This document shows, in pieces, positions 15,040-61,078 of a stretch of DNA of 64,000 nucleotides. The notes beneath the pieces were generated by a model. That model was given only the letters and a program-made list of their open reading frames with translations, did no database searches and had not been told where the DNA came from. The translations under genes were made by a program, and so were the position numbers. Source of the stretch: Paramacrobiotus metropolitanus (taxonomy: Eukaryota; Tardigrada; Eutardigrada; Parachela; Macrobiotidae); the NCBI RefSeq assembly GCF_019649055.1, contig NW_026570255.1:496001-560000 (forward strand), written 5' to 3'. Numbering within the stretch: position 1 is the first letter of the stretch; every line of letters begins with the position of its first letter.

Positions 15040-15239
15040 GATTTGTCTTGCGGATCGGTCAAAGTAGGCTTAAATAAACGAGCACTGCTACGGTTTGGTA
15101 ATAGTAAAATTCCGACGCATTAGTCAGTAAATGCAGGTCGCCCTCGACAGATTCGTCTTAAAATCCAACTCTTCTCTTTATCTGTGTTTAGACACATTGA
15201 CATGAGAAACTAACTGAACGAGGGCAGAAATAATAAGAC

Positions 15240-18022: not shown

Positions 18023-18273
18023 GGTTTGTTGGGAAGCGCAAATAGCCGTGCGTGCAGCGTGCAGATTAGTTAAAGGAAGGATTGGGAAAGCCAGCTGGCA
18101 ACAGGAAATTGCACTGTTCCTGACTGTCTAAGCATTGGCATTGTCAAATCAATTCAGGCCGCCTCGACAGATTCGAATAATGTCGGTGGAGATCGTTAAA
18201 GTTTGGGACAGCGCAAAATGTTCGCTGCAGAAAAATGTCAAGCTACATTAATTCGTTTTCCCCGGAAAGTACT

Positions 18274-38953: not shown

Positions 38954-39702
38954 CCGATGCGGAAGTAGCGTATCACATAATAAAGAAAAAAGTATTTAGT
39001 AAAGGATAGATCTTTGATTACCTCCAAAGAATTACGTTAAAAGTTGTTGGAACAGAGGATCAATTCGCACATGGACTGTTGTAAACATGTGCGGAAACAG
39101 ATCAGATCGTGAGTGAGTATGTTCCAGTGACGTTCCAGCGTGTGCCATGCCTGTGTTGACCTTGCGGTTATATGATCCGCTTAAGCGGCACAGCATCCAT
39201 TGCGTAAACGCTAACCTGACACATAGCACAGTGTTCCAGAGTAAACATCTACATATGACAATGTAAATTTCTTGTAATATCAGAAAGCGTATAGCTTCTG
39301 CCAGTGCTGTATCGACACTAATCCAAGTCCATTAATTTTGCCACGTTGGTGTTTCTTCCGTGCTTATAATTTTAACAATGTCTTTCGCGCATGCACTGTT
39401 TGCGTGTTAGCAACTCATGACGCTTCCGATCGGATTTCCTCTTTACGAAATTTATGGATGCCCCAATCCAACAAATTCATTTTCACTTCAGCATAGCCGT
39501 AATTCCAGACATTTCGGGCGTGCACTGTTAGCATTTGCAAAGAGTTAGAAAATGTGATTTGGCATGACATGGATGCATTTACAGAATGACACAAGAAGTC
39601 AGTGTGTAGGTTGGTTCAACAAAATTCCTCCTGTCTCTAATCCGTTGATGACTGTAGCGAACGGTCAGTCCCAGGTCATAGTGCAGTTGAATGGCGTGTT
39701 GG
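38954..39702. other. Intergenic module shared within the F-box array
   Basis: The stretch 39140-39260 (containing tatatgatccgctt and cagagtaaacat) recurs at 43858-43980 and 50850-50945. This shows that the tandem duplication unit of the F-box genes includes intergenic DNA. Confidence 0.7.
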
Positions 39703-42229
39703 TTATGGCACAGTACAATACAAGAGATACTGTGTCAGCCGTGTCAGCCGGTCCACATCGACCCAACGCAGCGGGTATTGTCCGGCTGCTGGAACCGGCT
39801 TCAAATACGTGACCTTTCTTCGGGGGTCGTTGGTCTGCCGAGCACGGACGATCTGCAAAGCGTTACACCCATCAACTAAACGTTACGCCGAGGAGTTCCA
39901 GCAACCAGCGAATAAAGAAAAGCGTATTAGAAAAGCGTAAAAAAGCTTACGTTGTCTCTAAGATCACTTTACGCTTTTTTTAATATCACTAGATCACCGG
40001 CATTACGTCGACCGTCACGAGCAACGACGGATAAATAAACCTAAGAAAACTTCAAAATCTGAATGAATTAAGAAGCAGAAGGATTCTAAAAATTCAAGAA
40101 ACGCTAAGAAAAATCTTAAAGCATATCGAAGTTTTTAATCCAGAAAAGTCAAGAAACGAAGAAAGTCAAACCCTAAGAAATCCAAAAACCTTAAAGTCAT
40201 CAAGAAACTCAAAGAAAACTTAAGAACCCAAAGATTACTCGAAAATGCAAGAAAACCAGGAAATCTTTACGAGCTAGGAACCTTGACTATTAAAATAATA
40301 AAAAGCATTAATGACGCCAAATCCTAAGGAAACCAATAAACCTTTAGAAAGCCGAAGAACCTTGAGAATCCAAAGGGAAAGCAAAAAATACACTAACTCT
40401 AATTCGTGGGTCGACATCGTGTTTGTTCGACTTAGTAACGTGCCGAGAAATTTCCATCCACAAGGTGGCGCTTCACTCTACTGATATGTCGCTTTACCTT
40501 CCGCAGCAATTCCCGAAGCCTGGCAGAGTGTTGTACCGTCTTATTGATAACACAGACCACTGTCTCCTTCTCCTCTTCATCCAGTCGCGGACAGCCTCTG
40601 CTAATCAAGCCCCACCAGTCTGCGACCCGCAGACGCCGGGGGCTGCGCATCCGTCCGAACGGGATGCGGTTGGTGATGGGCAGCCAGCCATCCGCCACCG
40701 ACCGGAAGATTGTGCAGGTGAAGTTCTTCACGGTAAGGGTACGACACACCGCCGCCAGCGAGTCAAATACGCGGTGGAGCGTGAGAATGTAATCCACGGC
40801 GCTATCTTCCAGAAAATGCACGCAGTTGATGTCCTTCAACACCAGATCCTCCGGAAACCACTCAGGGGCTCCTTGGATCAGTGCGTGCAGAAAACGCCCA
40901 TCACACAAGGGCAGATGATTCAGCCGCAGTTTCTCGGTGTCATCACCCTGAACTGGCGAACCCACAATAGCCACGGTGCGAGTACTCCAGCAGCGGTGTG
41001 CACACGCCACCGCCATGTACACATCGTCCACGGGACGGACTAAATCGCGTTTGGATGGGAACTGGATGTACAGCAGCTTTTTGACGGCGGCCGATGTGAG
41101 GAGGCGGTTCCAGATGGCGCACACCGCCCGCAGCCGGTACTGGTCAACGGTCGGCAGGCACTGCAAGGTCTCCGTCAGAATCTGCACGGGCAGAACGCGG
41201 AATGCGCGTCCATCATCCATAACCGGCGCAGGCAGCACCACCTCCAGCACGGGCGCCGTGGAGCGGCCGTCGCAGGCCAAAAAAAACATTCCACCATTTC
41301 ACTGAGGCCGGGCAACTGTCTTCAGAACTTGGCTTTGTCCCGTTTGTGGAAGTGGCGCTTGATGTAGCCGGAGTCACGGGTCGCAGGACGGATTTACTCT
41401 GCAATAGTGAACTGCATGAAGGTAACCCACTCAATCGTGTGCGGTGCTAGCGCAACGTAGTTCATTGAAAAGTGTACATAAAACAGACGATTCTCTGCAA
41501 TGAAGTTTTCCATATGGCGCAGTTCTATCAATTCGAGCAGTCCGTGGACCAAGGAAGCCATTGGGGCCGGGCATCGAATACGGTCGCGCGGAACGACGGT
41601 TCGGACGTCCCCGCCGGGCAAATGGATGGTGACCTAGGCGAACTGATTGTGCTGCCGGTCATACACGAGAACGGTAGCCGCGTGCCATTTCCACGGTTCC
41701 GAGGGACTGTGCTGCATCAACACCTCCACGGGATCCGCGATCCCTACAACCATCCACGCAGTATTGACTTTCTATGCACTGTTTCGATACACTGCTTCCA
41801 CTTGTAATAATAAATTCAGATTAAATTACAAGGAACCATTCTAGGCCTCGAATGCGCTTTTCTGAAACCAGACTGTGCCATCACGAAGCATAACGAGTGA
41901 AGAATTGCGACTTATAATGGCGATGACATGGTGCGAACAGAGATAAAGAATATAGTCACCAAGAAGAGTCGCTAAGGAGATTTTTACAAAGGGGTACCTT
42001 GATCGCCATAGAATCGGGAGCGCATAGGTCGAGGATAGGTGTAAGCGCTGACAGTCGCCCAGTACAAGAAAGCTTGATCCAGAGGGACCCACTCGTTCCT
42101 TCGATCCGCGCATCAAAAATCCACGAGCAGTCCGCTGCTGGACGCGGCAACTACCTTGCCGCACTGGAGCACTCCATCTCCTCCACGGACTTCCACAACA
42201 ATAGTAAAATCATCACTAGTTTTCGCCAT
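39703..42229 (-). pseudogene. Agenet-F-box gene, copy F (disabled)
   Basis: All four exons are still recognisable with splice sites: 41998-42229, 41478-41743, 40498-41398 and 39703-39852. Lesions: exon 1 has an in-frame TGA at 42113-42115 where paralogues have CGA (Arg); exon 2 has TAG at 41634-41636 where others have TGG; exon 3 has one extra base in a run of eight T (41279-41286), which shifts the frame just before the F-box; exon 4 has a small duplication that ends the frame early. The F-box (FRVLPVQILTETLQCLPTV) and downstream region are otherwise well kept, so inactivation is fairly recent. Intron 3 is filled with an A/AAG-rich (+ strand) low-complexity tract. Confidence 0.85.
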
Positions 42230-43005
42230 TGGTGGTTCCATTTAGCCACTGAATATGACCAGATTCACGAGTGTTGAACACTCGCAGTGCTCCTAACGGG
42301 AAACCTGCCGAAAAATAACTGGGAGGACGTCGTGGCGAAATTCTCAAGATACACTAGCACCGTGCGAAAAATTCGCCAGGACGACTGCTGTTAAGAAAGC
42401 AGAAAGGTGAGTATCGTATAAATCAGGAACCGGTAGACGATAGAACGCTATTAAAATTTACAGATCCGCGCCAACCAAAGCACCCGGATTTACAGTAGAT
42501 GGCAATCGTACATAGCTGCAGAGCGGTTCATTCCTGTTAGCTTCTTCTTCTCGTTCGCTTCGGCCACGCAAACGAGTAAAACTTTGGTTGTGTTTGAAGT
42601 TTGAACGTGTTTTCACCGCGTGACGATTCGGAAATGTGAATTGCACGAATTACACAACTACTTAATCGAATACATGGATACACTGAACGTTCGTAGTGAA
42701 TTTACAAAAATTTATTGTGTTTCATTCATATTACGTTTATTTTAGCATGCTTGATAAGATCGGTGCAGACATTCCGCCGTGCGCTGTTAGTAATAGAGGA
42801 AAGTTAGAAGATTCACGAACACATCGCTAGCCAGGCTGTACGCGACTGTGTCCTTCTTGTCGTAAAAAATCTGCAGCAAATAAATTAAATAAACTGCGAA
42901 CTTTCAGGAGAAAAACAACGGGACCTAAGACAAGAAAGCGGGAGTTCCGATGCAAAAATAACAGAACAAACAGACGTTTTAAGCGCATGGTAATGATTCA
43001 CCCGT

Positions 43006-43735
43006 TCACATTAGCGAAGCTAAAAACCGATTATTGCCGATTTTCCACAGACACCGTTTGAGTAGATCCATCCGCGTCTTCGAAAGTGATGGTAACCTCA
43101 CGGTGTCGTGCAGCGAACTCTGAAACCAGGAACAACTGATCGGATCAACATGTCCAACTGCGAAAGTTTTCCGTTGGATTCTTCTAAGCTCCCACCACAA
43201 CAGCTGGATGGTTTGGACTAATGCTTCTTCGCAATCCCACCACAACATAACCTTGACGATATTCTCAGTGCCCACTTGGAGTCTTGGACCTCGTAGGAAA
43301 CTATCGGAAAAATATACATAAAACGCAAACGAATTAAAATTGTAACACAAAGAAAATCAAGGATATAAATGATGAAAAGGTTATATAAACCGATGTCGTG
43401 TTTACCGCTATTTTCATTGCCGATCACTTGCGCCGGCGCTCCGGTTCCGCGATTCACAATCACACATCCTCCGGATAAATTGCTGGTGCATTGACCGATA
43501 ATATGGGCACTTCCGGCTTGTTACAGGAGACGTACGCAAAATCCGCATCAAACCTTACGCTTGAGCGGTCGCATACGTTTATCTTTGTCCTAAGCCGGTT
43601 TAGTCGCAAAACGATCAGCTGAACTGCGCTTCGGGCTCTGTTGACTCACGGTGACAGAGCGGTCCAGTTTCGTGATAACCGGACTGGAATGGCGGAATCA
43701 TCCGGGAATTCAACATCGGAGCCGGTGATCATCAT
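43006..43735 (-). CDS. Unidentified three-exon gene between F-box copies
   Basis: Exons are 43650-43735, 43464-43589 and 43006-43300. Donors are CACC|GTGAGT and GATGT|GTGATT, acceptors are aaccggcttag and tttttccgatag; both junctions are phase 2. The 168-residue product opens MMITGSDVEFPDDSAIPV and contains NVCDRSSVRFDADFAY, a junction region YPEDVFLRGPRLQVG, and a Trp-rich stretch (VMLWWDCEEALVQ, LLWWELRR). It shows no signal peptide or transmembrane helix and no similarity to the F-box family that I can see. A different frame is also open near the 3' end (VTITFEDADGSTQTV), so the C-terminus is uncertain and a further splice there is possible. Confidence 0.45.
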
Positions 43736-44385
43736 GTCGCACCGCTCCGCCAGCAATGATCTAGATCTAAAGCTGAGCTCCGCCGCGTGCGGCCACGCCA
43801 CGGGTTCCGCGCAGGTAGAGATGGCAACGCTCAGCCGGATTCGTTTTCAGCGGCGGGGTGTGCCATGCCTGTGTTTGCCTTGTTGTTATATGATCCGCTT
43901 TAGCGGCACAGCGTCGATTGCCTAAGCGATAACTTGACACTAAGGTACAGCGTCCCAGAGTAAACATATACATATGACATCGGTTGCAAATTTCTAATCA
44001 TATCAGAATGCGTACACCTTCTGCCGGTGTTGTATCGGCACTGATCCAAGTCCATTAAGTTTACCACGCTGGTGTTTTTTCCGTGTCTAAAGTTGTAACA
44101 ATGTTTTTCCGCGCAGTGGCGCATGTACGCTTGTGCCTCAGCCGCTCAGGACCCTTCCGATCGGATTCCTCCAAGAACTTTATGGATGCCAGTCCAACAA
44201 ATTATTTTCAGTTCAGTATAGCCTAAATTACATATATCTAGGGCGTACGCTGTTAGCATTGCGAAGCGTTAGAAGTTGTAGTATGACACGACATGAATGA
44301 ATTACAGAATGATACAACAAGTTAGTGTGTAGGTTAGTTCAACGATTCCGCCTGTCTCTAATCCGTTGTTGCCTCCAGTGGAAAA

Positions 44386-46866
44386 TTAGTCCCAGGTCAT
44401 AATGCAGTTGAATGGCGTGTTGGTTATGGCACAGTACAGGAGATACTGCGTCATTCGTGTCAGCCGGTCCACATCGACCCAACGCAGCGGGTATTGTCCT
44501 GCTGCTGGAGCCGGCTTCAAATACGTGACCTTTCTTCGGGGGTCGTTGGTCTGCCGTGCACGGACGATCTGCGAATTGAAGCGTTACACCCATCAACTGA
44601 CGCCGGGGAATTCCAGAAAACAGCGCGTAAAGAAAAGCGTATTAGAAAAAGCGTAAAAAATATTACGCTTTTTCTAACATCACTAGAGCACCGGCATTAC
44701 GTCGACCTAGACTGTTCGAGCGCCATAGGGCCGATCTCCACGAAATCGACCGCCGCGAGGGCTAATAAGCCTCAGAAAATTTCGAAATCTGAGTGAAATT
44801 AGGAAGCTGAAGAAATCTTCCAGAAACTCAAGAAACGCTAAAAAAGGTCTGAAAACAAATCGAAATTCTTAATCCAGAAAAATCGAGAAACCAAAAGAAA
44901 GATAAAACCCTAAGAAATCCAGAGAAACCCAAGAAATCATCAAGTCATCAAGAAGCTCAAACAAAACCAAAGAGCACAAAAACCGAAGAAAACTTAGAAA
45001 TGCAAGAAAACCAAGAAACCTAAGAAATCCTGCCAATCAAGGAACCCTAAGAAAGCTCTTTAAAAAAAATTCAATCGAAAAACATCGACGACGCCAAATC
45101 CAAAGAAATCCCCAAAAACCAATAAGCCTCGAGTAAGTCGAAAAACTTTAAGAAAGCCAAGGGAAACGCGGCGGTTCAGCACTACGCTACCTCGAACTCG
45201 TGACGGGTTGACACCGTGTGAATTCGACATCGTTACGTGGCCTGAAATTTCCGTCTACACAGTTACACAGTGATTCTATCTCGCTTTACCTTCTCCAGCA
45301 ATTCTCGAAGTCTGGCAAAATGCTGCGGCGTGTTGTTGATAACGAAGCCCACCTCATCCTTCTCTTCTTCATCCAGTCGCGGACAGCCTCTCCCAATCAA
45401 ACCCCACCAGTCCGCCATCCGTAGACGCCGATCGCTGCGCATCCGTCCGAACGGGATGTGAATGGTGATGGGCATCCGGCCATCCGCAACTGACTTGAAG
45501 ATCTGGCAGGTGAAGTTCTTCACGGTAAGCGTGTGGCAAACCGCCGCCAGCTGGTCAAAGACGCGATGTAGCGTGATGATGTAATCCACGTCATTATCTT
45601 TCAGAATATACTCGCAGTTGATGTCCTTCAACACTAGGTCCTGCGGGAATTTCTCGACGGCTCCATTGATCAGCGCGCGCAGAAAGAGCCCATCGCACAA
45701 AGGCAAATGATTCAGCCGCAGCTTCTCTTTGCAGTCATCCCGGACTGGCGAACCCACGATAGCCACCGTGCGCGTACTCCAGCAGCGATGTGCACAGGCC
45801 ACAGCAATGTAGACACTGCCAGGACGAATTTCATCGGATGTGGAGGGGAACTGGATGTGCAGCAAGTTCCTGAGAGCGGCCGATGTGAGGACGCGGTTCC
45901 AGCCGCTGCACACCGTCCACAAACGGCACTGATCAACCGTGGGCAGGGACTGTAGGATCTCCGTTAAGATCTCCACCGTCAGGAAGCGGATTACGCTGTC
46001 CTCGTTAAGAACCGGCGCGGGCACCACAACTACCCGAGCTGGTGACGGGGAGCGGCCGCCACAGGGCAGGAAAGCCGTCCACCATTTCTCCTTGGCCCGA
46101 TAACCGTTCTGGCGTTCTTGCTGCTTCCCGCTCGTGGGTGCAGCGCTCTCAACAGGGCGGAGCACGGATTTATTCTGCAACAGCAGCGTAATTGACCAGA
46201 TTATCATTTCCGGCACAGTAAAGGCAGTAAAGATGGTTTACGTAAAACAGATGGTTTTCTAAACTAAAGTTTTCCATGCGGCGCGCTTCCATCGTCTCGA
46301 GCAATCCGTTGGCCAAGGAAACCATTGAAGCCGGGCGGCGAATGCGGTTTCGAGGAACGACGGTTCTGATGAATCCGCCGGGCAAGAAGATGGCGACCCA
46401 GGCGAACTGACCGTGTTGCCGGTCGTAAACGAGGACGCCGGCTGGTTGCCATGTCCACGGCTCTGACGGACTGCGCTGCATCAGCACCTCCACGGGATCC
46501 GCGATCCCTATTACCATCAACATCATAAGAAATCGTTTCTGACTAATATACGCATTTGTCAGCCCTCTGTAACCGGCAAGGAGAAACCTTCGGGGACCTA
46601 AGTTAGCGCATGCCAAAGCAGCGTCGCTAACTACCTTGATCGCCATAGAATCGGGAGCGCCTCCGTCCAGAGTACGAGTAGGCACTAATATTAGCCCAGT
46701 AGAAGAGAGCTTGGTCAAGAGGAACCCATTCGTTCCGTCGGCCCGTGCAGCGAAAATCGACGCGAAGTCCGCTGCTGGACACAGCTACGACCTTGCCGCA
46801 CTGCTTCGCTCTATCTCCTCCACGGACTTCCACCACAACAGCGATGTCCTCTGGATTTGTCGCCAT
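44386..46866 (-). CDS. Agenet-F-box protein, copy E (intact)
   Basis: Exons are 46635-46866 (phase 1 out), 46242-46507, 45290-46174 and 44386-44568, giving 521 residues. Exon 1 encodes an Agenet/Tudor-like module (VVVEVRGGD, GKVVAVSSSGLRVDF, NEWVPLDQA). Exon 2 encodes a second one (VEVLMQRSPSEPWTW, FAWVAIFLPGG, VVPRNRIRRP); the pair aligns by eye with the tandem Agenet domains of FMRP/FXR. Exon 3 begins NKSVLRPV, carries an F-box (IRFLTVEILTEILQSLPTV, then DQCRLWTVCSGWN) and the conserved LRLNHLPLCDG and VKNFTCQIF blocks. Exon 4 has IVRARQTNDPRRKVTYLK. Likely an adaptor of an SCF ubiquitin ligase that reads a methylated or RNA-associated partner (inference). A 15-bp perfect hairpin lies in intron 3. 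Confidence 0.78.
44642..44677. repeat. Perfect 15-bp hairpin in intron 3 of copy E
   Basis: TTAGAAAAAGCGTAA and its exact complement are separated by a 6-base loop. A related, imperfect version is present at the matching place in copy F (about 39926-39975). Confidence 0.7.
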
Positions 46867-48257
46867 GGACGGTTCCAGTTGGCCACTTGACATAGGCATG
46901 CTGTCGTCTATTGGACACGTCACGTTACTCTCGAGGAGCCTGCCAAAAGTAACGGGGAAGACGACGCTGTGAGATAAATAACAAAGATGAATAGCAAAGC
47001 ACACCAACACTGCAATAAATTACTGTATTTGGACGTCCGTTAAGAAGTAAGCTCGAAGTGCCAATTTTGTGGAATATCCCATGCAACATGAAGTCGTACG
47101 TTAGTACTCGTACATATATACACGTTTCCTAAGCCACTCATAAAAAAGGACGCAGAATGGTTTTCAGAGTCAGTGTGATTCTATGCGCTGTAAGGGCGGG
47201 TTTACGACTTTACGTATAGCTATGAGCCTATAACTCCTGCCCATCTGACTTGCTATTCGCTGCATTTCAGCGGATTTTCACGCCCGCATTTTCAAGCTTC
47301 TTCAACGGATCTGCAGCACAGTTGCACCACCTGCTCGGTTTTTGGTGAGACGACAGCATCGTCAATAAAGTCCCTGTTTCCGAATCGTTCTGTCGAGGAT
47401 TCGTGTGGCGCCCGTAAGGCTCCACCTTATAGCGTTGTAAATAAGTTTAGCACGATACGATAAAGATGCTACGCTTTGTTTATGGATGTTTCCTTGCCAC
47501 CGTCTCCTCCTTGGGTCACGCACACGACAACACGAGTACACAACCAATTATTGCCTGAACTTGAGTTTAAACCTGGATGCTTCGCTATTCAATTGTTCCG
47601 TTTTACGGATGACAGTTAGTTCCAGAAGGGTTCATGAAAAATGCTAAACACAAAAAAGCGTAACAAATCACCGTACGACTGAGTCACAGCAACAACACTT
47701 CCTTTATCGCGAACACTACCTATTTTATTCAATAGCTAATCGAATACGTACCGAGATCCTCAAGATGCAATCTAAAGTCTCCTGCTTTTGTTCCTGTTTC
47801 TTGCTTTTGTCTATACGTACACTTTTTTTCCGGTGCTGTATCGGCGTTCATCCACGACCATTACAGATCAGTAATGTTTTGATAAATTACAGTAATTTCA
47901 CCATATCGGTCAGATTCTCGATGTTTCTTCAGTGATCAAATTTATATCAACCTTATAGCTGTGCCGCGATTCCGCGCATATGTTCAGTTTTGTTTGTTAG
48001 TAACCGATGACACTCGCATTTCCCCCGAAGTTTATGGATGTTAGTCCAACAAATTCCTTTTCAATTCAATGTAACCTTGATTACTGACTTTTACGCGGGC
48101 GCCGTTAGCATTAGTGAAGAGTTTTTAAATTGACATGACATGAATGCATTACGAGTACACATACAACAACTCAGTGCAGGTTAATTCAACAAAGTCCACC
48201 GGTCTCACGGTGTGGCTTCCAATGAAAAGCATGCTGGATGGGAAAAGATTAAGGAGG
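46867..48257. other. Intergenic between copies E and D
   Basis: No supported gene. The part nearest copy D (about 47820-48240) is shared with the other intergenic modules of the array (gtttatggatg...agtccaacaaat). Confidence 0.5.
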
Positions 48258-50545
48258 CTACGCGGTGGGCCAGGTCACAGTGCAGTTGAACGTCGTTCGG
48301 GAAATAGCACAGTACATGAGATACTGCGTTAGTCGTGTCAGCCGGTTGAAATCGACGAAACCCAGCTGTGCTACTGGAGACGGCTTCAGATACGTGATGC
48401 TCTTTCGAGTATCGTTGGTCTGCCACGCCCGGACGATCTGCAAAGCATTACACCCATCAGCTGAACGGTACGTCGAAATTGTGGCAAACGGCGCTACTGG
48501 AGATAAGTTTTACGCTTTCCCCAGAGCCATTTGGTCACCGGCAGGAATCCTAAGAAAAGTCGAAGAAGCAATCCAGAAACAACCTGGGACCCCAAACCAA
48601 AAGAAATCCAAAAAAAACCAAGAACCCTAAGGATGCCAACGAACGCTTAAAGAAAGAGAACGAACCCTTAAAGAAAGAGAAGGTTCAGCAAAACGGTAGC
48701 TGGACTTCGTGACGGGCCGACATCGTGTTTCGTCGACCAAGTGAGTAGTGACGATTTGAGAAATTTCCGCCGCCCTACCCTGTCCCACTCTATCGTTCCT
48801 TACCAGCCTCAACAATCCCCGAAGCCACTCAGAATGCTTTATCTTCTTTTTGATAAAGCCGGACACCACACTCTTCTGCCCTTCATTCAACAGCGGACAG
48901 CCTTCCTCAATCATGTTCCACCAATCCGCGACCGTCAGACGTCGATCCCAGCGCATCTGCCCGAACGGGATTTGAATAACGATTCGTACCCAGCCATCCT
49001 CATCACAATTGCAGATCTCGCAGGTGAAGTTCTTCACGGTTAGGATACCACAGATCGCCGCCAGCTGGTCAAATACCCGGTAGAGCGCGATGAGGAATCC
49101 ACGGCGTTAATTTCCAGAACATACATGCAGTTAATGTCCTTAATCACAATGTCCTCAGGGACCCTCGCGGAGTCGTCTTGGATCAGTGCACGACGCAGAA
49201 AGAGTCCATCACACAAAGGCAAATGGTTCAGCCGCAGTTTCGCCTCGGAACCACCCTGGACCGGCGAACCCACAATGGCCACGATGCGGATACTCCAGCA
49301 GCGATGTGCACAGGCCGCAGCGATGTACACACTGCCAGCGGACAAGGAGCAATCGCTTTTGGATGGGAACTGGATGTGCAGCAGGTTCCTGGCGGCGGCC
49401 GCTGTGAGGAGACGGTTCCAGACGGCGCACACCGCTCGCATTCGGCACTGATCAACGGTTGGCATAGAATACAAGGCCTCCGTCAGGATTTCCATGGGAA
49501 GGACGCGGAAGGCGCAGCCAGCGTCAAAAACCGGCGCTGGTGGTACAATTTCCAGCGTTGGTGGCACGAGTTCCAGCGCGGGTGACGTAGAGCGGCCGCC
49601 GCAGGCCAAGAACACCTTCCACCATTTTTCCGTGGCATCGCAACAGTCCGCCGGTTTCTGTTGCTTTCGGCCCGTGGGGTAGTACTGGCTTTCGCGGCCA
49701 CCACAGCACGGTTTTTCTCTGCAATAGTAAAATACGCTGCGTAACCAACCAAATTCTCTCCGACACACTTAGCCAGTTAGCCCAGTAAAGATTGTCGAAT
49801 GATTTACATAAAACAGACGATTTTCTTCAGTGAAGTTTTCCATATGGCGCAATTCAATCAGTTCGGGTAATCCGTAGGCCAGGGAAAACCATGGGAGCAG
49901 GGCATCTAATACGGTCGCGCGGGACGACGGTTCGGACGTCCCCGCCGGGTAAGCGGATGGCGACCCAGGCGAATTGATTGTCCTGCCGGTCATAAACGAG
50001 GACGGTGGCCGGATGCCATTTCCACGGCTCCGAGGGAGTGCGCTGCATCAGCACCTCCACGGGATCCGCGATCCCTACAACCATCCACGCAAAGTTGACT
50101 TTATGTGCATTGCTTAAAATGAATTAATAAATTCAGAATAAATTACAAGGAACCATTTCCAGCCTTGAATGCGCCTTTCTGGAACCAGACTGTGCCATCA
50201 CGAAGCATACAGAGCAGAAGAATTCTGCTTATAATGACCATGAAATGGCGTGATCAGCGTTAAAAATAATGTCACCAACAAGAGTCGCTAAGGAGACTTT
50301 TACAAAATGGTACCTTGATCGCCATAGAATCGGGAGCGCATAGGTCGAGGATAAGAGTAAGCACTGACATTCGCCCAGTACAAGGAAGCCTGATCCAGAA
50401 AAACCCACTCGTTCCGTCGGTCCGTGCATCGAAAATCCACGAGCAGTCCGCTGCTGGACGCAGCTACTACTTTGCCCCACTGGAGGACTCCATCTTCTCC
50501 ACGGACTTCCACAACAATAGTAAAATTATCTCCCGTCTTCGCCAT
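48258..50545 (-). pseudogene. Agenet-F-box gene, copy D (two frameshifts)
   Basis: Exons are 50314-50545, 49808-50074, 48804-49718 and 48258-48437, with all splice sites conserved. Exon 1 is intact (VVVEV replaced by IVVEVRGEDG, LVDFRCTDRRNEWVF). Exon 2 has one extra base in an A run (+ strand about 49884-49887), which shifts the frame after RIRCPAPMV. Exon 3 starts REKPCCGG instead of NKSVLRP, keeps the F-box (FRVLPMEILTEALYSMPTV), then loses one base near 49100 before the VKNFTCEI block. Exon 4 lacks a few codons compared with paralogues (LKPSPVAQLGFVDF). The two shifts do not compensate. A sequencing error could explain one lesion but hardly both. Confidence 0.8.
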
Positions 50546-51397
50546 TGACGGTTGCAACTGGCCACTGAACATGCGCAACTTGTCGTCTGTTGGGCACACG
50601 TAATGTTCCTGACGGGAAACCTACCGCAAGTAACTGAGGTTCTTTATGAAGTTATAACCCAATGTATAACAGCACTGTGCGAAATATTCGCCAAGACAGT
50701 TGCTATTAAGAAAGCATAATGGTGCTAAGATGGTTGCAAACCGCTCAAATACTGCAACCACTACACTGCTTAGACGAGAATAAAAATCGTATCCCTGCCA
50801 GACAGAGCACCTGGATATATCTGTAGATGCGATGGCGATGCCACGTCTTGTGGTCACATGATCCGCTTAAGAGGACAGAATCGATTGCCTGAACGATAAC
50901 TGGACAGTAGCCAGTAGGTATCCCAGAGTAAACATACACCTATGAGTCACCTGACGATCTTTGCAACTTTCTAATATCCTTGGAATGCTCACTGTGCGGC
51001 GGTACGCTATCTGCCGGCGCTGCATCGACACTGATCCCGGACCGATCATGTTACCATATGGTCAGATTCTCGGTGTTTCTTCAGTGGTTAAACTTTTAAC
51101 TTTTTGCTATTTTACGCAATAATCCCGCGCATTCTGCTGCTTTGTTTGCTAGTAACCCACGACGCTCGCATTTCCCCCCGAGGTTTATGGATGCAAGTCC
51201 AACAAATTTCTTTTCAATTCTATGTTACCTTGATTATAGACTTTTAGGCGGGCGCAGTTAGCATTTGAGAAGAGTTTGCAAAATTAGCATGAGAAGAATG
51301 CATTACAGAAACAACAAAGTTAGCGCTGGTTAGTCCAACAAAAGTTCGCCCGTCTCCTTAAGTTCCTTCAATGAAAGGTCCACGGGATGGAAGGAAG
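50546..51397. other. Intergenic between copies D and C
   Basis: Contains the shared intergenic module (50850-50945, catgatccgctta and cagagtaaacat). No gene that I can support. Confidence 0.5.
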
Positions 51398-53841
51398 TTA
51401 GGCAGGCCAAGTCACGGTGCTCTTGAACGGCGTGTGGGTAACGGCACAGTACACGAGATACTGCGTCAGCCGTGTCAGCCGGTCCACATCGACCAAACCC
51501 AGCGGGTGCTGTCCTGCGGCTGGAGCCGGCTTCAAATACGTGACCTTCTTTCGGGGGTCGTTAGTCTGCCGCGCACGAACGATCTGTGAAGCATTACACA
51601 TATTAACTCAACAGTACGTCTGAAACGAAGCGCACAGCGGCTTCGGCAATCGGTTTTACGCTTTCTGTTATATCGCTAGGCACACTGGCATTACGTCAGC
51701 GTAGGGCTGTTTCGATCCCACGAGGTTAGCCGAAAAAACCTTTAGAAAATTTGAAGTATGAGAAGCTTGAGGGAACTAAAGCTCAAGGAACATAAAACAT
51801 CAAGAAAACCTAAGAAAAGACCGGAAAAAGTCGTAGCCCAAAGAAATCGAGAAAACCCAGAGAAAGCCTAACAGCCGCAAGGAAACCTATAAAGAAACTT
51901 TAGGAAACTTAAAATTCTAAACAATTAAGAACCTGAAGAATCTGATGCCTAAGAAAACTCTGAAAAATCAAAAATCTCAAATTCAAAGAAAAACTCAAAA
52001 GCCGCAAACCCAAAGATGCGAGAAGAAATCCTAGAACCTTAAAGAAAACCGAAGACCACTATGAAACCACAAGGAAACACGACGGTTTTGCCCAACGCCA
52101 TCTCGATTTCGCCCGATTTAGTGACGTTCGAGAAATTGTCTTTACGAACTGGCGCGTTATAATTTCTTACTCTACCTTCCTTACCGTTCTCAACACTTCC
52201 CGAAACCTCTCAGAATGCTGTTGCCTCTTTTTGATAAAGCCGGACACCACAAGCTCCTGCTCTTTATCCAGCCGCGGACAGCCTTCCTCATTCATGTTCC
52301 ACCAGTCCGCGACCGTAAGACACCGCTCGCTGTGCATTCGTCCGAACGGGATGTGGTCCATGTGGATAGTGATTCGCACCCAGCCATCTTCCGTAGAATC
52401 GAAGATCTCGCAAGTGAAATTCTTCACAGTCAGCGTGTGGCAAATCGCCGCCAGCTTGTCAAAGACGCGGTGGAGTGTAATGATGTAATCCACAGCATTA
52501 TCTTCCAGAACATACATGCAGTTAATATCCTTAATCACGAGGTCCTCCGGGAACCTCTCGACGGCTCCTTGGATTAGCATAAGCAGGAAGCGTCCATCAC
52601 ACAATGGCAAGTAATTCAGTCGCAGTTTCTCCTCGAACCCACCCTGGACCGGCGAACCCACAACGGCCACAGTTCGGGTACTCCAGCAACGATGCGCACA
52701 GGCCACAGCGATGTAAACCCTGCCCGCGGACGATGAGCAATCGCTTTTGGATGGAAACTGGATGTGCAGTAGGTTCCTGGCGGCGGCCGCTGTGAGGAGG
52801 CGGTTCCAGACGACGCACACCGCCCGCACTCGGCACTGATCAACGGTTGGCAGCGAATACAAGGTCTCCGTTAGGATTTCTAACGGCAGGACGCGGAAGG
52901 CGCGGCCAGCGTCAAAAACCGGCGCAGGCAGCGCAGCCATCAGCGCTGGTGATGCGGAGCTGCCGCCGCAGGCCAAAAACACCTTCCACCATTTTTGCGT
53001 GGCCAAGCAACCGTCCGCAGGTTCCTGCTGCTTTCCGCTCGTGGGTGTAGTGCTGGCATTCGCGGCCGCCACAGGACGGAGCACGGATTTATTCTGCAAA
53101 AGACAAAACTCCCAATAATTCCACTCCGGTACATTAAGCGCAATGAAGATTCTTGAATGGTTTACATAAAACAGATGATTTTCCGCGGCATGGGAGCCTC
53201 CCATGCCGCGCAATTCCATCAGATGGAGCAATCCATAGTCCAAGGAAATCATGTGAGCACGGCGTCGAATGCGGTTGCGCGGAACGACGGTTCTGATGTC
53301 CTTGCCGGGCAAGTGGATTGCGACCCGGGCGAACTGACCGTGCTGCCGGTCGTAAACGAGGACGGAGCCCGGATGCCATTTCCACGGCTCATTGGAACTG
53401 CGCTGCATCAGCACCTCCACGGGGTCTGCGATTCCTACAACCATCCACTTAATATTGGCTTTCTCTGAATCATTCAAAGGCATGGAACCAAACTTATGAA
53501 AAATCAAAAGACCTGTCTCTCGATGCATACAGTGTGGAATAGGCGATAGTGCGTGTTAAGCACATGATGTCACCAGTGAACGTCGCTAAAGAGTTTGTCA
53601 AAATTTTACCTTGATCGCTGTAGAATCGGCTGCCCATTGGGCCAGAATAAGAGTAGGCACTGACAGGATCCCAGTACATGGAGGCTTGATCGAGAGGCAT
53701 CCACTCGTTCCGTCGGTCCGTGCAGCGAAAATCTCCGATCAGTCCGCTGCTGGACGCGGCTACTACTTTGCCGCACTGGGACACTCCATCCCCTCCACGA
53801 ACTTCCACAACAACAGCCAAAGCATCTCCAGTCTCCGCCAT
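51398..53841 (-). CDS. Agenet-F-box protein, copy C (intact, longest)
   Basis: Exons are 53610-53841, 53166-53434, 52185-53093 and 51398-51583. Phases are 1, 0 and 0; donors GTAAAA, GTAAAC, GTAAGG; acceptors gttgtag, ttctgcag-type and cttcacag. The product is 531 residues. First Agenet-like module: VVVEVRGGDGVSQCGKVV, with the charged DRRNEW replaced by DRRNEWMPLDQA. Second: VEVLMQRSSNEPWKW and IRTVVPRNRIRR. F-box: FRVLPLEILTETLYSLPTV with QCRVRAVCVVWN. The region after the F-box carries an extra two codons (ITIHMDHIPFGRM), and exon 2 has a local insertion (GMGGSHAAENHLFY) whose DNA is a small inverted duplication (catgggagcctcccatg). Intron 2 is also open in frame, so intron retention would not stop translation. 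Confidence 0.8.
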
Positions 53842-54480
53842 TGGCGGTTCCAGTTCGCCATTTGACGAGTAGATTCACGAGGAACACACGGATTGTTCCT
53901 CACGGGAAACTTGCCGACAATAACTGCGAGGACGTCGTTATGAATTCTCGCACATGGCACACTAGCACTGTGCGAAATATTCGCAAAGACGAATGCTGTT
54001 AAGCTAACGTTAACATAAAGGTGCTAGCACCGTTTCAATACAACAGGAACCGGTGACACGGTTAGACGTGACAAAAATTTTCATAAATCAGCGAGACAGA
54101 GCACTTGGATGTAGATGACGCCATGCCTTGATCGCGGCTCTTTCATATTTAAATCGTACTCGTACAATCTTGTCCGGTAATTTCCTTCCTTAGGGTACAA
54201 CTAGCGCGATGTCTGCGCCTAAAACGATGGTCACTTCACCACGTTTATAGGGTTGCCCAAATGCGCTCCGCAGTTAAATTGTCCATTACAGCACCGACTG
54301 TTTTCCAGCCACATTCCGCCAGGCAGTTACAGTACTACGATTCTCATTTACGATTAATTATCTTGCGTGCATCAGGCGACCACACATACCATGTGAACGC
54401 TAGCACTTTCAGTTTTCGCAAGAGGTGGGCATTGCCACCTGCTGTTCTGCCAACTTCTCCCTCGGTAGCGCACACGAGAA
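53842..54480. other. Intergenic between copy C and the relic
   Basis: No supported gene; shares scattered similarity with 5' flanks of the other copies. Confidence 0.4.
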
Positions 54481-54920
54481 TAACCGTTTTCTGCTTGAAC
54501 ATGGTTTGGAATTCGGACGTTGCGGTAAATACAACGTGCCAATCCAGTAGCGAAGCGCACAGGCTACAGTGACCTGACAATGCCCGCGGGAAATAAATCT
54601 GGAGAATCGAAATCAGCAGCGGATGGGAACTGGATGTGCACAAGACGTTTGGCAGCGGCCTCTAAGCAGGGCGCCATCCACTGGAAACCGAGAAGCTGCC
54701 GAAAAATGCACCGATGGGGGAATCGAACCCCGGCTACGTCGTTAGATCCGCGTAGGCAGTACCACTGCACCACGGCGCAATACGTGGAAATCCTTTGAAA
54801 GATTTTGTCGCTGTATGTGAGCCGCTTCTCTCCTCACAGGCCGATATAAGAGAACAGTTCCAGTCGGCGGCTCAACGGTGTGCAGACATTGCAAGGTCCC
54901 CGAGTCCGTGCTAGCAAATG
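54480..54920 (-). pseudogene. Relic exon 3 of a seventh Agenet-F-box copy
   Basis: Minus-strand fragments LQCLHTVEPPTGTVLL (about 54850-54905) and AAAKRLVHIQFPSAADF (about 54605-54660) match F-box and post-F-box blocks of the paralogues (LQCLPTVDQCRLRAV; AAARNLLHIQFPSKSD). A further fragment (VTVACALRYW, about 54535-54570) matches VYIAVACAHRCW. The pieces are out of frame with each other and a tRNA-like sequence lies between the first two. Confidence 0.75.
54707..54778 (-). tRNA. tRNA-like sequence, probably a pseudogene or SINE head
   Basis: The minus strand contains an A box (TGGTGCAGTGG) and a perfect B box (GGTTCGATTCC) at normal spacing in a 72-base unit. Ends GCGCCG...CGGTGC pair over six positions, and a GGGG/CCCC T-stem is formed. 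However, the anticodon stem CTACG/CGTAG encloses a 12-base loop rather than seven, and the seventh acceptor pair is mismatched, so I cannot assign an anticodon. It sits inside the F-box relic. Confidence 0.5.
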
Positions 54921-55172
54921 ATGACACTGTCGGTCGGGCTTCCCCACGGGATTTATTCATTTCCACAACAACCTTATTTGCCGTTCAGTTGAGCTTAATA
55001 ACAGACATTTAGGCGTGCGCTGTTAGCACTTGTAAAATTGTTAGATTTAAACTGACATGACACGAATGCATTACAAATAACAAGCAGGTTAATGCGGGTA
55101 ATGCAGGTTAATTCAACAAAAGTCCGCCGGTCTCACTTAGTTGCTTCCAGTTGAATGTCCGCGGGAAGAAAG

Positions 55173-57805
55173 TTAAGCAGCAGGCCAAGTCACAGTGCAG
55201 TTGAAGGTCGCCTTGGTTATTGCACAATACATGAGATTCTGCGCCAGTCGTGTCAGCCGGTTCACATCCACGAAATCCAGCGGGTGCGGTCCTGCTGGAG
55301 ACGGCTTCAAATACGTGACACTCTTCCGTGGATTGTTAGTCTGCCGTGCCCAGATAATCTGTGAATGTGTTACACTCGTTAACCGAACGCTGCATCAAAC
55401 TTGTGGCAACCAGCGCTGCTGGAGATTTATTTTGCGCTTTTCCTCATAGTGATGGCTCATCGACATTTTTTTTGTCCACTCACAAGTCGGCCACCACCAT
55501 GAGAGCCACGACTAAGAAAACTAGGAAGAAATTACTTAAGACTAACAAGCTTAAAAAAAACCTAAAAAAAGTGGGGAGCCACGAAAATAGCGATGGTTTA
55601 TTTATGCACTAGCTCGATGTCGTGACGGACAGACACATATTGGACGACTTTTTGTCGACGAATTGGCGTGACACCATCAAAAGGCACTACGTCGACGTAG
55701 ACTGCGTCGATTGCCCTAAGGGCGGGACCCCACGAAGCCGACCGTCAACAGGGCGAAGACAAAAAAGCCTCATGGACCGTAGGAAACTTATGAGTCTAAG
55801 AAACCTAAAAAATAAGAACTAAGAAACCTAAGACATCTGATAAATCAGAAACTTTCGAAAAGTGTGACCACCTAGAAAGCCTTAAGTCAAAGAACCGATG
55901 AAAATCACGAAAGCATAAGCAAGCTTAAGAAACCACAGAAAACTTTCAAAAATCATTAATCCATAAGGAGCCAAGGGGAACTACGACGGTTCTGCATACG
56001 CTAGCTCGGCTCTGTAATTTTTCGACTTAGCGACGTCAGCAAACGTCTGTCTTCGAAGTGGCGCGAAACCCTATGTCACTCTACCGTCTTTACCATTTTC
56101 AGGTTTTCCTGAAGTTCGGCAGAACATGAATGCCGTTTCCTGATCGCACAGCGCACCACTCCTTTCTGCTTGTCATTCAGCCGCGGACATCCTTGCTCAA
56201 TCATTCGCCACCAGCCGGTAAGCGTCAGACACCAGTCGCGCATCCGTCCAAACGGGATGCGGATGGTGAAGGGAACCCCGCCATCCAAAACCGACTGGAA
56301 GATCTCGCAGGTAAAGTTCTTCACGGTCAGCTTATCACCGACCGCCGCTAGGGAGTCAAACACTCGGTGGAACGTGACGATGTAATCTTTGGCTCTATCA
56401 TCAGGAATATACATGCAGTTAATGTCTTTCAGCACCAGATCCTTCGGGTAGTTGTTCATCAGCGCGCGCAGAAAGAGTCCATCACATAAAGGCAAATAAT
56501 TAATCGACAGTTTCTCGTTGCAGTTATCCCGGGCTGGCGAACCCACGATGCCCACTACGCCAGAACTCCAACAACGATGTGCACAGGCCACAGCGATGTA
56601 AACACTTCCGGCGGACGATGAGCATTCGCTTTTGGATGGGAAATGGATGTGCAGTAGGTTCCTGACGGCGGCCGCTGTGAGGAGGCGGTTCCAGCCGGTG
56701 CACACCGTCCGCAGCCGGCACTGGTCAACGGTCGGCAGGGAATACAAGGTCTCCGTAATAATTTCCACCGGCAGAACCCGGAATGCGCGGCCCTCGTCGA
56801 GAACTGGCGCCGGTGGCACAATTTTCAAAGCTGGGGAAGTGGAGCGGCCGCAGCAGGCCAAGAGACCCTTCCACCATGTTTCCGCGACCCGGCAACCGTC
56901 TTCGGGTCCGTGCTGCTTCACGCTCTTGGGTGTGGTGCTGGCTTTCGCGGCCGCCAAAGGGCTAAGCACCGTTTTATTCTGAAATAGTAAAATACATGCA
57001 GAAAAAAATATCCGCTCCGGCACATTAGGAGTGAATAGTGATAAAGATTGTGGAATGGCTTACATAAAACAGACGGTTTTCTAAATTGAAGGTTTCCATT
57101 TTGCGCTCTTCCACCAATTCAAGCAATCCGTAGGTCATGAGCACCTTTAAACCACACCGTCGAATACGGTCTCGCGGAACGACGGCTTTGACGTCCCTGC
57201 CGGACAAATGGAATTTGACCCAGGCGAACTGATTGTGCTGCCGGTCATAAACAAGGATGGTGGCCGGATGCCATTTCCAAGGCTCCGCGGGACTGTGCTG
57301 CATCAGCACCTCCACGGAATCCATGATCACTGCAACCATTAACGTAACAATGACTCTCTGTGCACTGTTTCCACTGTACTAAGGAATTCAGAATAAATTT
57401 CAAGGAACCATTTTCGGCTCTCTGGAAGCAACCTGTGCCATCGCGACGCACACAGAAATAGAAGAACTGCGAATTACGTGAAATGGTGCGAACGCAAGTA
57501 AAAGCTAATGTCACCAGCAGGCGTCGCTGAGGAGATTTTGTACAAAGTAGTACATTGGAAACAGTGCACAAACCTTGATCGGCATAGAACCTGGAGCGAG
57601 TCCATCGAGGATAAGAGTAAGCACTGACAGGATCCCAGTACATGGAAGCTTGGTCGAGAGGAACCCACTCGTTCCGTCGGTCCGTGCATCGAAAATCCAC
57701 GAGTAGTCCGCTGCTGGACGCGGCTACTACTTTGCCGCACTGGAATATTCCATCACGTCCACGAACTTCCACCACAACTGCGATGTCCTCCGGAATCTCC
57801 GCCAT
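55173..57805 (-). CDS. Agenet-F-box protein, copy B (intact)
   Basis: Exons are 57574-57805, 57064-57329, 56094-56978 and 55173-55358, giving 522 residues. The first donor is GTTTGT, the others GTAAGC and GTAAAG. First Agenet-like module: VVVEVRGRDGIFQCGKVV and DRRNEWVPLDQASMYW. Second: VEVLMQHSPAEPWKW, FAWVKFHLSGRD and VVPRDRIRRC. Exon 3: NKTVLSPLAAAKAST, then the F-box FRVLPVEIITETLYSLPTV and LRTVCTGWNRLLTAA. The following LSINYLPLCDGLFLRAL and VKNFTCEIFQSV blocks are kept, although a short deletion removes residues before PKDLVLKDINCMY. Exon 4: IIWARQTNNPRKSVTYLK. There is no lesion. An in-frame ATG twelve codons upstream of the chosen start also exists. Confidence 0.8.
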
Positions 57806-58568
57806 TGACGTTTCCCGTTGGCCGCTGAACATACGCAGATTGTCGCCTGTGGAGTACACCGCACACGGAATGTTCCTCCCGCGAAGCTTGCTGGAAATAA
57901 CGACGAGGACCCGTAGTGAAACCCTAACCCAAGGTACAGTACGCTAGCGAAATATTCGCCAAGACGGCTGCTGTCAAAAAAAGCACAAAAGTGCTAAGTT
58001 GGCTGAACTCCGTTAATCTACTGTGCAGCTGGAACCGATCCATGGCTACTGGCAAGACGTGATAAAATTTCATATCCCTGCCAGATAAAGCACCCGGATA
58101 TAGATGCCATGCTACGCCTTGTTCACGGCTATAATGCAATTTTATATTTAGATGATTTTAGATTGTACTCGCACCGCGCACGCAGCTGCAAAGAGGTTTA
58201 TTTGCGCGTGTTCCAGAAAGCATGCACTTTCTGTCGGTAATGTATATACACTAATCCATGTCCATTAATTGTACCACGAGTGATAAGAGTCTCGGTGTTC
58301 TTTCAGTGTTTAAAGTTTAAAGATCGGATGCAGGTCTCCGTCTGCGTGGTAGTAAACGATGACGTTGATCGAGCTTCTCCGCAGAATTTATTTATTTTCC
58401 CCCACAACATTATTTGCAGTTCAGTGTAGCCTTAACAACAAGTACTCAGCTGTGCGCTGTTAGCGATTGAGAATGTTAGATTTAAATTGACATGACACGA
58501 ATTCATTACAAGTAACAAGTTAATGAAAGTTAGTTCAATAAAAGTCCGCCGGTTTCCCTTAGCTGCTT
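57806..58568. other. Intergenic between copies B and A
   Basis: No supported gene; the segment adjacent to copy A (58370-58560) is shared with other 3' flanks of the array. Confidence 0.45.
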
Positions 58569-61078
58569 CTAGTTAGAGGTCCGCGGGATGGAAGGAAGCA
58601 ACGCAGTGGGCCAGGTGACATTGCAGGTGAATGGCGTGTTGGTTATGGCACAATACAGGAGATACGCCGTCAGTCGTGTCAGCCGGTTCACATCGACGAA
58701 ATCCAGGGCATTCTCTCCTGTCGGAAACGGCTTCAAATATGTGACACCCTTTCGGGGGTCGTTCGTCTGCCGCGCACGGATAATCTGCCAAGCGTTACAC
58801 CCGTCAAACACCCGGTATGTCAAACATATGTGGCAAGCAGCGCCGCTGGGAATGCGTTGTACGCTTTGACTCTCCACTTTCGTCGACGAAAACTATTCTA
58901 CGTCGAATAGGCAGGATGTCGACTCGTCACGAAGTCGTACTAGCGTTTTGCTAAACCGTCTTTAGTTTTGTTGAGTTTTCTTCAATTTCTTAGTTTTCTT
59001 AGGTACCTTGGTTACTTGAGCCATAGGTTTCTCAGCCGTGGCGCGAAGAAACGCTCAATAAACATAAAAACTTTCGTAAACTAAGACGACTAAGAACAAC
59101 CTAAGAGAATCGGGAAACCCTAGTAACAGCCGGAAAACGTAAACAGCCCTAATCAATTGATCGAAAACGGGGAATCGTTAACGAAATTAAAGAATTCTAG
59201 AAGACCCTACTAGGAACCTATGGCAGTTAAGGCAAACACTAGCTCCACTTCGCGACGAGTGAATACCGTGTTTGTTCGACTTGGCGACGATTCCGAAACT
59301 GCCGTGTACGAAATGGCGCGCCACTGCTTTATCTATCACTGTACCTTCCTAAGTAACGACCGAATCTTGACGGAATGCAATTTCCGCTTCCAGATCGCGC
59401 AGAACACCACCCGTTTCTGCTCCTCATCCAGCAGTGGACAGCCTTTCTCAATCATCTCCCACCAGTCAACGACCGTCGGACGCCAGTCGCGGCGCATCCG
59501 TCCGAACGGGATATGTATGGTGATCGGCAGCCGGACATCCTGAACCGACTGGAAGATCTCGCAAGTGAAGTTCTTGACGGTCAGCGTGTGACAAACCGCT
59601 GCCAGCTGGTCAAATACGCGCTGGAGTGTAAGGATGTAATCCACGGCAGTATCTTCCAGAACATACTGACAGTTAATGTTCTGCAACACCAGGTCGTGCG
59701 GGAACTTCTCGACGGCTCCTTCGATCAGCGTGTGCAGAAAGCGTCCATCACACAAGGGCAACTCGTTCAGTCGGAGTTTCTCCTGGGAATCACCCTGGAC
59801 TGGCGAACCCTTAACGGCCACCACGCGATTACTCCAGCAGCGATGTGCACAGGCCACAGCGATGTACACCGAGCACGGACCATCTAAATCGCTTTTGGAT
59901 GGGAACTCGATGTGCAGCAGACTTTGAACGGCGGTCGATTTGAGTAGACGGTTCCAGACGGTGCACACCGCGCGCAACCGGCACTGGTCAACGGTCGGCA
60001 GACACTGCAGGGTCTCCGTCAGGATCTCCATGGGAAGGAGGCGAAATGCTCTACCAGGAGCAGGCACCATACTTTTCGGCGCTGGTGATGTAGAGCGGCC
60101 GCAACAGGCCAGGAAAACCTTCCACCATTTTTTCGTGGCCAGATAATCGCCCGCGGGCCTTGGCTTCTTGTCCTTCGTGGAACAAGCGCTTGTTGTCTCC
60201 GCTGCCAAAGGCCGGAGCACCGATTCATTCTGAAAAAACAAGAAATAAATGTAACAAACCAATAATTCCCTTCTGGCACAGTAATCGCATAACTAATGTA
60301 CATAAAACTGAAGATTGTCCTTCACGTAGCCTGATTCCGGTATTTCGTGCAGTTTCCAGGACCAGGGAGCCATGACATTCGGGTGTCGGATACGGTCGAG
60401 GCGAACGATGCTTCTGACGTCGCCGCTGGACAAGTAGATGACGGCCAGACCGAACTGGCCGTACTGCCGATCATGGACGAGGAGGGTCGCCGGCTGCCAT
60501 GTCCACGGCTCCGACGGACTGCGCTGCATCAGCACCTCCACAGGATTCGCGATTTCTGCAACCATCAGCCTCATAAAGATATTATCCTGATGGTTTTGAA
60601 GAAATCCCGTTCTTTTCGTCACAAGAAAGGACTTTCTCTGCACCACTTCTGCTGTACTGATAAAAAATAAAGAATAAGCTACAAAAAACATTCTGAACTA
60701 AAAAGATGCCAAACCCAACCGATCGTCCATCCACGAAGCTGATACAGAATGGAAAAATGCGATGTAAATCCAATGTGAATTAATGCGTGCCAAGCCGTTA
60801 CTTCGTGTCACAAATACATGTCAGCAGGATGTTTTATCATGGTTACCTGGATCACCATAAAATCCAGAGCGCATCGGTCGATGCTGAGACTAAGAAGACT
60901 CAGAAGGTACGGACAAAAAAGCCTGATCAAAGGGAACCCATTCCTTTCGTCGGTCCGCGCATCGAAAATCCACGATGAGTCCGTTGCTGGACACGGCCAC
61001 CACACTGCCGCACTGGAGCACTCCATCGCCACCACGGACTTCCACAACCACAGCGGAATCCTCCCCATTCTTCGCCAT
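58569..61078 (-). pseudogene. Agenet-F-box gene, copy A (one nonsense codon)
   Basis: Exons are 60847-61078, 60302-60555, 59345-60229 and 58569-58784, with conserved phases and splice sites, 529 codons in all. The only clear lesion is an in-frame TAG at 60890-60892 in exon 1, at the position where paralogues read Tyr in SAYSY. Everything else is open: VVVEVRGGDGVLQCGSVV, VEVLMQRSPSEPWTWQPA, the F-box FRLLPMEILTETLQCLPTV, VKNFTCEIFQSV and IIRARQTNDPRKGVTYLK. The C-terminus is about ten residues longer than in the other copies. With a single lesion this could be a sequencing error, a polymorphism, or a gene bypassed by an alternative start, so the pseudogene label is provisional. Confidence 0.65.

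Follow-up and report, generated by a model that had tools for sequence, protein, structure and literature searches.

A 64,000-nucleotide window of the Paramacrobiotus metropolitanus genome (assembly GCF_019649055.1, contig NW_026570255.1, positions 496,001 to 560,000) carries, on its minus strand at 39665-61078, a cluster of six tandem gene copies, here called A to F; all positions below are those of the window. The copies share a four-exon layout in which two short exons are followed by a long exon with an F-box and by a conserved last exon. A first-pass annotation had described this cluster, at 39703-61078, as six genes that each join a pair of FMRP-like Agenet/Tudor modules to an F-box. Its span takes in nearly the whole cluster, omitting just the final bases of exon 4 of copy A, and its four-exon layout is present in six of six copies; its claim that each of them encodes the protein is not confirmed, since only B (521 amino acids), D (531 amino acids) and E (522 amino acids) are open over all four exons. 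Exon borders were set from GT-AG signals and the reading phase common to the copies, after alignment of all six on the minus strand. The placed introns have donors that start with GT and acceptors that finish with AG, the third donor of copy C being a placement made without confidence. Exon 1 measures 232 nucleotides from its ATG in every copy, and the introns of the intact copies B, D and E have phases 1, 0 and 0. A seventh copy had been suspected by eye between D and E, but a translated search that used the three intact copies as queries recovered only these six in the window.

Copy B illustrates the architecture. Exon 1 (46635..46866, minus strand, as for all copies) starts with an ATG at 46866, ends at a GT donor in phase 1 and would encode an FXR-type Tudor 1 domain, followed in exon 2 (46242..46507) by an FXR-type Tudor 2. 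Exon 3 (45290..46174) holds an F-box at 45881-45976, scored at 26.1 bits by Pfam, and a C-terminal region, while exon 4 (44386..44568) supplies the conserved C-terminus with its stop codon. Copy D follows the same plan, with Tudor 1 in exon 1 (53610..53841), Tudor 2 in exon 2 (53166..53434), a weak F-box at 52794-52889 (17.8 bits, below the Pfam cut-off) and the C-terminal region in exon 3 (52185..53093), and exon 4 at 51398..51583. The corresponding exons of copy E lie at 57574..57805, 57064..57329, 56094..56978, with an F-box at 56679-56774 (24.7 bits) and the C-terminal region, and 55173..55358. Tudor profile matches mark exons 1 and 2 in all three copies and a genome search marks exon 4; all of these exons were placed by the shared exon borders. 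Copy A (39665..42229) is interrupted by stops in its first two exons and by frameshifts in its last two, with a still recognisable F-box at 41086-41193; copy C (48258..50545) is frameshifted in exons 2 and 3; and copy F (58569..61078) has a stop in exon 1, with exons 2 to 4 open and an F-box at 59936-60040.

All four exons are under purifying selection. The ratio of non-synonymous to synonymous substitution rates (dN/dS) is below one in every comparison, ranging over 0.33-0.47 for exon 1 (copies B, C, D, E), 0.53-0.84 for exon 2 and 0.35-0.46 for exon 3 (B, D, E, F for both), and 0.21-0.76 for exon 4 (B, C, D, E, F), values obtained pairwise with a simple count method from few copies, some of them broken in other exons. 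Within exon 3, the F-box segment has the lowest ratio in five of six pairs (0.21-0.37), the exception being B-D, where the C-terminal part falls slightly below it (0.35 vs 0.37). When counts were slid along B, D and E in windows of 30 codons, the proportion of non-synonymous differences (pN) nowhere exceeded that of synonymous ones (pS). The protein sequence has therefore been kept, and dN/dS supports nothing beyond that.

Profile searches relate exons 1 and 2 to the FXR family. The searched assembly spans 169.8 Mb in 533 contigs, and the loci retrieved from it are labelled L001 to L074. A search with a tardigrade telomere repeat gave 0 matches, which does not speak against a tardigrade origin. 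A profile (A8) was built from the Tudor pairs of 32 same-genome relatives, with the genome's own FXR gene excluded, and compared with 177,635 distinct PDB sequences. The FXR family fills the first six ranks, which are also the only ones with an E-value (E) below 0.005: FXR1 (E 2.6e-6), four FMRP sequences (1.7e-4 to 4.7e-4) and FXR2 (9.8e-4), followed by uL24m at 0.0096. The four alignments displayed are co-linear across both Tudor domains. Profile-profile comparison with FXR gives a probability of 96.5 over 112 columns for A8 and of 97.2 over 110 columns for a second Tudor alignment, likewise without the genome's own FXR; for exon 1 of the window copies taken by itself, the hhalign probability is 74.8 over 39 columns. 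A further profile (A5), from nine relatives with the Tudor pair in one frame, was run on a small search set, where it recovers exons 1 and 2 of the window with E-values from 8e-16 to 1e-9; two fragments score 3e-6 and 6e-6, and the genome's FXR gene 1.2e-5. Of the five best Tudor_FRX1 places outside the FXR gene, each scanned individually, two exceed the curated Pfam cut-off of 25.9 bits (L074 at 30.5, L070 at 27.3). In an unrooted tree over 144 columns, one long branch separates the 32 relatives and copies B, D and E from three FXR sequences, a split read from the drawing; under an arbitrary root the monophyly test returns False.

Together, the PDB ranking, the profile-profile scores, the relatives above the curated cut-off and the tree argue for homology of exons 1 and 2 with the FMRP/FXR pair of Tudor/Agenet domains. 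The FMRP/FXR likeness proposed from the letters alone is thus borne out by the family profile, with FXR1, FMRP and FXR2 at the top, and not by Pfam on the window exons scanned. The depth of the profile matters: a four-member profile ranks FXR1 first in the PDB with E 0.91, so that the 32-member profile was needed, and PDB searches with window exon alignments alone returned no FXR match (A1 none; A4 two chance matches). The check suggested earlier against an Agenet hidden Markov model (PF05641) gave 0 genome matches and is uninformative, because the model also misses the genome's true FXR. That gene (L001, G000 C5:3433812) is canonical, with KH0 and KH_1 above cut-off and the FXR C-terminal core below it.

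Like FMRP, FXR1 and FXR2, the predicted proteins carry two Tudor domains in the same order, and the homology may reach the start of KH0. In the 32 relatives, Tudor 2 and the F-box are separated by about 100 residues, which begin in a way that resembles the beginning of FXR KH0 and possibly include its first part; a decayed KH0 domain is no more than suggested. The hhalign score is 18.4, above the maximum of 12.2 among 100 column shuffles, yet the match covers just 22 columns with a probability of 4.6, support having dropped to those 22 columns once L001 was left out of the family set. Unlike the FXR family, the window genes and relatives have no KH1, KH2 or FXR C-terminal core above cut-off in the Pfam scan of window exons and relatives, and an F-box follows instead; the single KH-named match (KH_SLS1_2 in L013, 12.4 of 27 bits) is at chance level. 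Further differences are the replacement of several Tudor 2 pocket residues and the existence of a separate canonical FXR gene in the same genome.

An F-box is the part that plugs a protein into a ubiquitin ligase. At the Pfam cut-off of 20.5 bits, the domain is recognised in copies A, B, E and F among the five scanned (A, B, D, E, F), which agrees with the earlier placement of an F-box downstream of the two modules; copy D stays under the cut-off. The genome also holds four Skp1 matches above cut-off. Downstream of the F-box lies a conserved region of about 200 residues, followed by the last exon. A profile of 14 relatives (A9) matches only the F-box parts of solved proteins in the PDB, the best being FBXL3 (E 7.3e-4), and the Pfam F-box model matches 14 of 14 A9 members, with nothing else in Pfam common to them. 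In the A2 search the top match is F-box only protein 31, aligned over the F-box (E 0.23), and three chance matches to homoisocitrate dehydrogenase come next.

The joining of the Tudor pair to the F-box is independent of splice-site guesses, because in several relatives a single open frame encodes the two together. This arrangement occurs at 13 loci (L013, L014, L017, L018, L019, L023, L024, L025, L030, L036, L038, L039 and L040), corresponding to 10 distinct places once the duplicates L013/L038, L017/L023 and L019/L040 are merged, and it bears out the fusion proposed for the window. Pfam finds an F-box or F-box-like domain above cut-off in L013, L014, L017 and L019; L018 has no Pfam match. Across the 49 loci scanned, a same-strand F-box lies downstream in 43; as five places are represented twice, this amounts to 39 of 44 distinct places. 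The Tudor profile used comes from A8 members, and the queries that led to many of these loci included an F-box. Segments of B, D, E, F, L010, L013, L014, L017, L018, L019 and L021 went into the F-box profile, so that these match by construction. Shuffled frames of the first 49 loci give 0 matches with either profile. The distinct places without a downstream F-box are L001, the true FXR, together with L002, L046, L015 and L020. A longer cut of the L002 place, labelled L074, contains a partial F-box-like match about 3.3 kb downstream; the L015 stretch ends early, with a partial F-box-like match at its edge; and the L020 stretch also ends early, with an F-box match just past its end.

The association also appears from the opposite direction. 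A reverse sample of 20 F-box loci was drawn at about every seventh row from rows 1 to 134 of 150 scored matches, with about 2.2 kb of upstream sequence included; one row already included was swapped for its neighbour, and none of the 20 had served for profile building. A same-strand upstream Tudor pair is present in 18 of the 20. Loci L070-L074 belong to a divergent branch whose Tudor_FRX1 matches in Pfam are the strongest apart from that of the FXR gene, and they may lie close to the founding fusion or represent unfused Tudor genes.

Genome searches show that the window holds a small part of the family. All 150 scored of 489 candidates match exon 1 (E <= 0.002), all 150 scored of 419 match exon 2, exon 3 yields 116 matches from 123 scored of 566 candidates, and exon 4 yields 37 from 38, the last few being weak. 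For the Pfam F-box, 150 of 150 scored places are above cut-off, out of 1080 first-look candidates. The F-box count and the 18 of 20 sampled loci with a Tudor pair indicate that the family is genome-wide, with probably well over a hundred members. The notion of a six-gene family therefore understates its size.

Comparison with FMRP also addresses what the Tudor pair might bind. Pocket positions are given in FMRP numbering, mapped by aligning FMRP to the family profile, and Y68, W80 and Y103 are taken here to be pocket residues of FMRP. For FXR1 and FXR2, the pocket is listed as Y95, W97, V66 and E104 in their own numbering (PMC2970552); from shared sequence, Y95, V66 and E104 presumably correspond to FMRP Y96, V67 and E105, with W97 unplaced. 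FMRP pocket mutations in use include F32L and Y96L (PMC5430443). One explanation is that methylated lysine or arginine is recognised by the Tudor pair, so that a protein bearing the mark is directed to destruction through the F-box. This would be in keeping with the FXR homology, with the weak binding of methylated peptides described for FXR Tudors (PMC2970552) and with their binding of RGG/RG proteins (PMC5430443). Among the 32 relatives, several positions fit: W79 is kept in 31, position 105 is Glu or Asp in 29, F32 of Tudor 1 is Phe in 22, and position 80 is Tyr or Phe in 18, with Leu in 10. The others do not, since Y68 is Leu in all 32, Y96 is changed in all (Val in 13, Trp in 11, others in 8) and Y103 is kept in only 4. 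The intact window copies B, D and E retain F/F/F at position 32, V/V/V at 67 and W/W/W at 79 and carry L/L/L at 68, Q/H/H at 80, I/I/F at 96, I/I/V at 103 and T/T/A at 105. Tyrosine is missing at FMRP positions 96 and 103 in the canonical FXR of this genome as well. Judged from these alignments, the FXR pocket is partly kept in the window genes, and methyl-lysine reading there, which the first-pass annotation had put forward, is not supported because Y68, Y96, Y103 and E105 are replaced and only part of the pocket remains. Methyl-directed destruction is accordingly an unlikely account of the family.

A more fitting account, which we regard as quite probable, is that the family consists of substrate adaptors for Skp1-Cul1-F-box (SCF) ubiquitin ligases, built on the N-terminus of an FXR protein and evolving by birth and death. 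The N-terminus would derive from both FXR Tudor domains and perhaps from the beginning of KH0; the F-box would dock on Skp1 and Cul1; and holding the substrate or positioning the ligase would fall to the Tudor pair together with the conserved C-terminal region. Skp1 binding, SCF activity and substrate recruitment by the Tudor pair or the C-terminus are what the known behaviour of these domain families would predict. Birth-and-death evolution is indicated by family size, tandem arrays and broken copies, and it may resemble that of the Caenorhabditis F-box families, for which PMC8665587 gives 39 to 1426 genes per species, many of them in tandem, with high turnover.

Several observations weigh against this adaptor reading, and three further explanations draw on some of them. 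Three of the six window copies (A, C and F) are broken, and stops are present in a number of genome matches to family exons, as would be expected if most of the family were dead sequence spread by duplication, with no protein function; that explanation is highly improbable in view of dN/dS below one for every exon comparison and the many long open frames among the genome relatives. At the N-terminus, window exon 2 alone compares weakly with FXR (hhalign probability 18.7, 54 columns), Pfam returns no Tudor or Agenet match for the scanned exons of the window (exon 1 from copies C and D, exon 2 from copies B and D), and Tudor_FRX1 matches only two of the 32 relatives individually, with a best E of 0.019. 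The weak per-member Pfam matches, with uL24m (E 0.0096) next in the PDB ranking, could suggest generic small barrels whose FXR likeness arose by convergence, an idea that is very hard to reconcile with six PDB matches below E 0.005 that are all FXR, four displayed alignments that run in order through both domains, and two relatives above the curated Tudor_FRX1 cut-off.

On the F-box side, copy D scores 17.8 against the Pfam cut-off of 20.5 bits, and Skp1 genes are few (four), unlike in C. elegans, where SKR genes expanded alongside F-box genes (PMC12919956). Both points would suit an F-box with a non-degradation role, such as a Skp1-only assembly or a scaffold. This seems improbable given that dN/dS within exon 3 is lowest in the F-box in all pairs except B-D and that the Pfam model matches every A9 member and every scored place in the genome. 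The adaptor reading must also accommodate L050 and L068, which carry an F-box without a Tudor pair. Among the five best Tudor_FRX1 places, only L072 and L074 match the F-box profile, both partially; the stretches of L070, L071 and L073 give no F-box profile match, a split F-box-like motif being visible by eye in L073. Finally, the C-terminal region matches nothing known in the A2 and A9 searches of solved proteins or in Pfam on A9.

A more speculative extension of the adaptor reading, for which the odds appear low, treats the FXR Tudor pair as bait. It is suggested by the binding of some viral proteins to FXR proteins through an Agenet-like domain (PMC13285845). In a fast-turnover repertoire of ligase adaptors, proteins of intracellular parasites or viruses that evolved to grab host FXR would bind the copy instead and be passed to the ubiquitin ligase, which would make the family an animal counterpart of the integrated decoys in plant immune receptors. 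An arms race in the window copies is not favoured, because Skp1 genes are few and dN/dS is below one.

Two known systems help to place the SCF adaptor family. The Caenorhabditis F-box-FBA2 and F-box-FTH families resemble it as large F-box families with tandem arrays and turnover. They differ in carrying FBA2 or FTH after the F-box, and the available part of PMC8665587 mentions no Tudor pair; FBA2 and FTH are not among the Pfam matches of the window exons and relatives scanned. Fxr1 is a direct substrate of SCF-Fbxo4 (PMC5688124). The likeness lies in an F-box protein that works on an FXR protein; FXR is a substrate in trans there, whereas the FXR module lies within the F-box protein here.

A search of the open literature, with subscription papers, preprints and protein databases outside its scope, found no FXR-type Tudor or Agenet pair fused to an F-box among the papers listed, in line with the earlier suggestion that none has been described. 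The main text of a 2025 study of F-box genes and captured domains likewise contains neither Tudor nor Agenet (PMC12062965). Judging from this genome alone, the family may be confined to one lineage. To our knowledge, FXR tandem Tudor domains are known elsewhere from a small number of conserved RNA-binding proteins, and here the module heads most F-box genes sampled, probably in well over a hundred copies. The family thereby offers a natural variant set in which the partners of FXR Tudor pairs, and the residues that matter, can be explored. It also provides a second, separately built F-box expansion as a counterpart to the Caenorhabditis one, the purpose of which continues to be debated.

Elsewhere in the window, a protein kinase domain (Pfam Pkinase, 6.5e-13) adjoins copy F at 61750-62406 on the minus strand. 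An array of a 45-base unit (100.6 copies, 90% match) occupies 27218-31778 within a 1577-codon open frame, and an open frame on the plus strand at 21292-22308 has a chitin-binding Peritrophin-A match just below cut-off (21.9 vs 22.1 bits). Three minus-strand open frames, at 14071-15069, 17126-18127 and 37964-38995, have no Pfam match and appear by eye to be multi-spanning and chemoreceptor-like.

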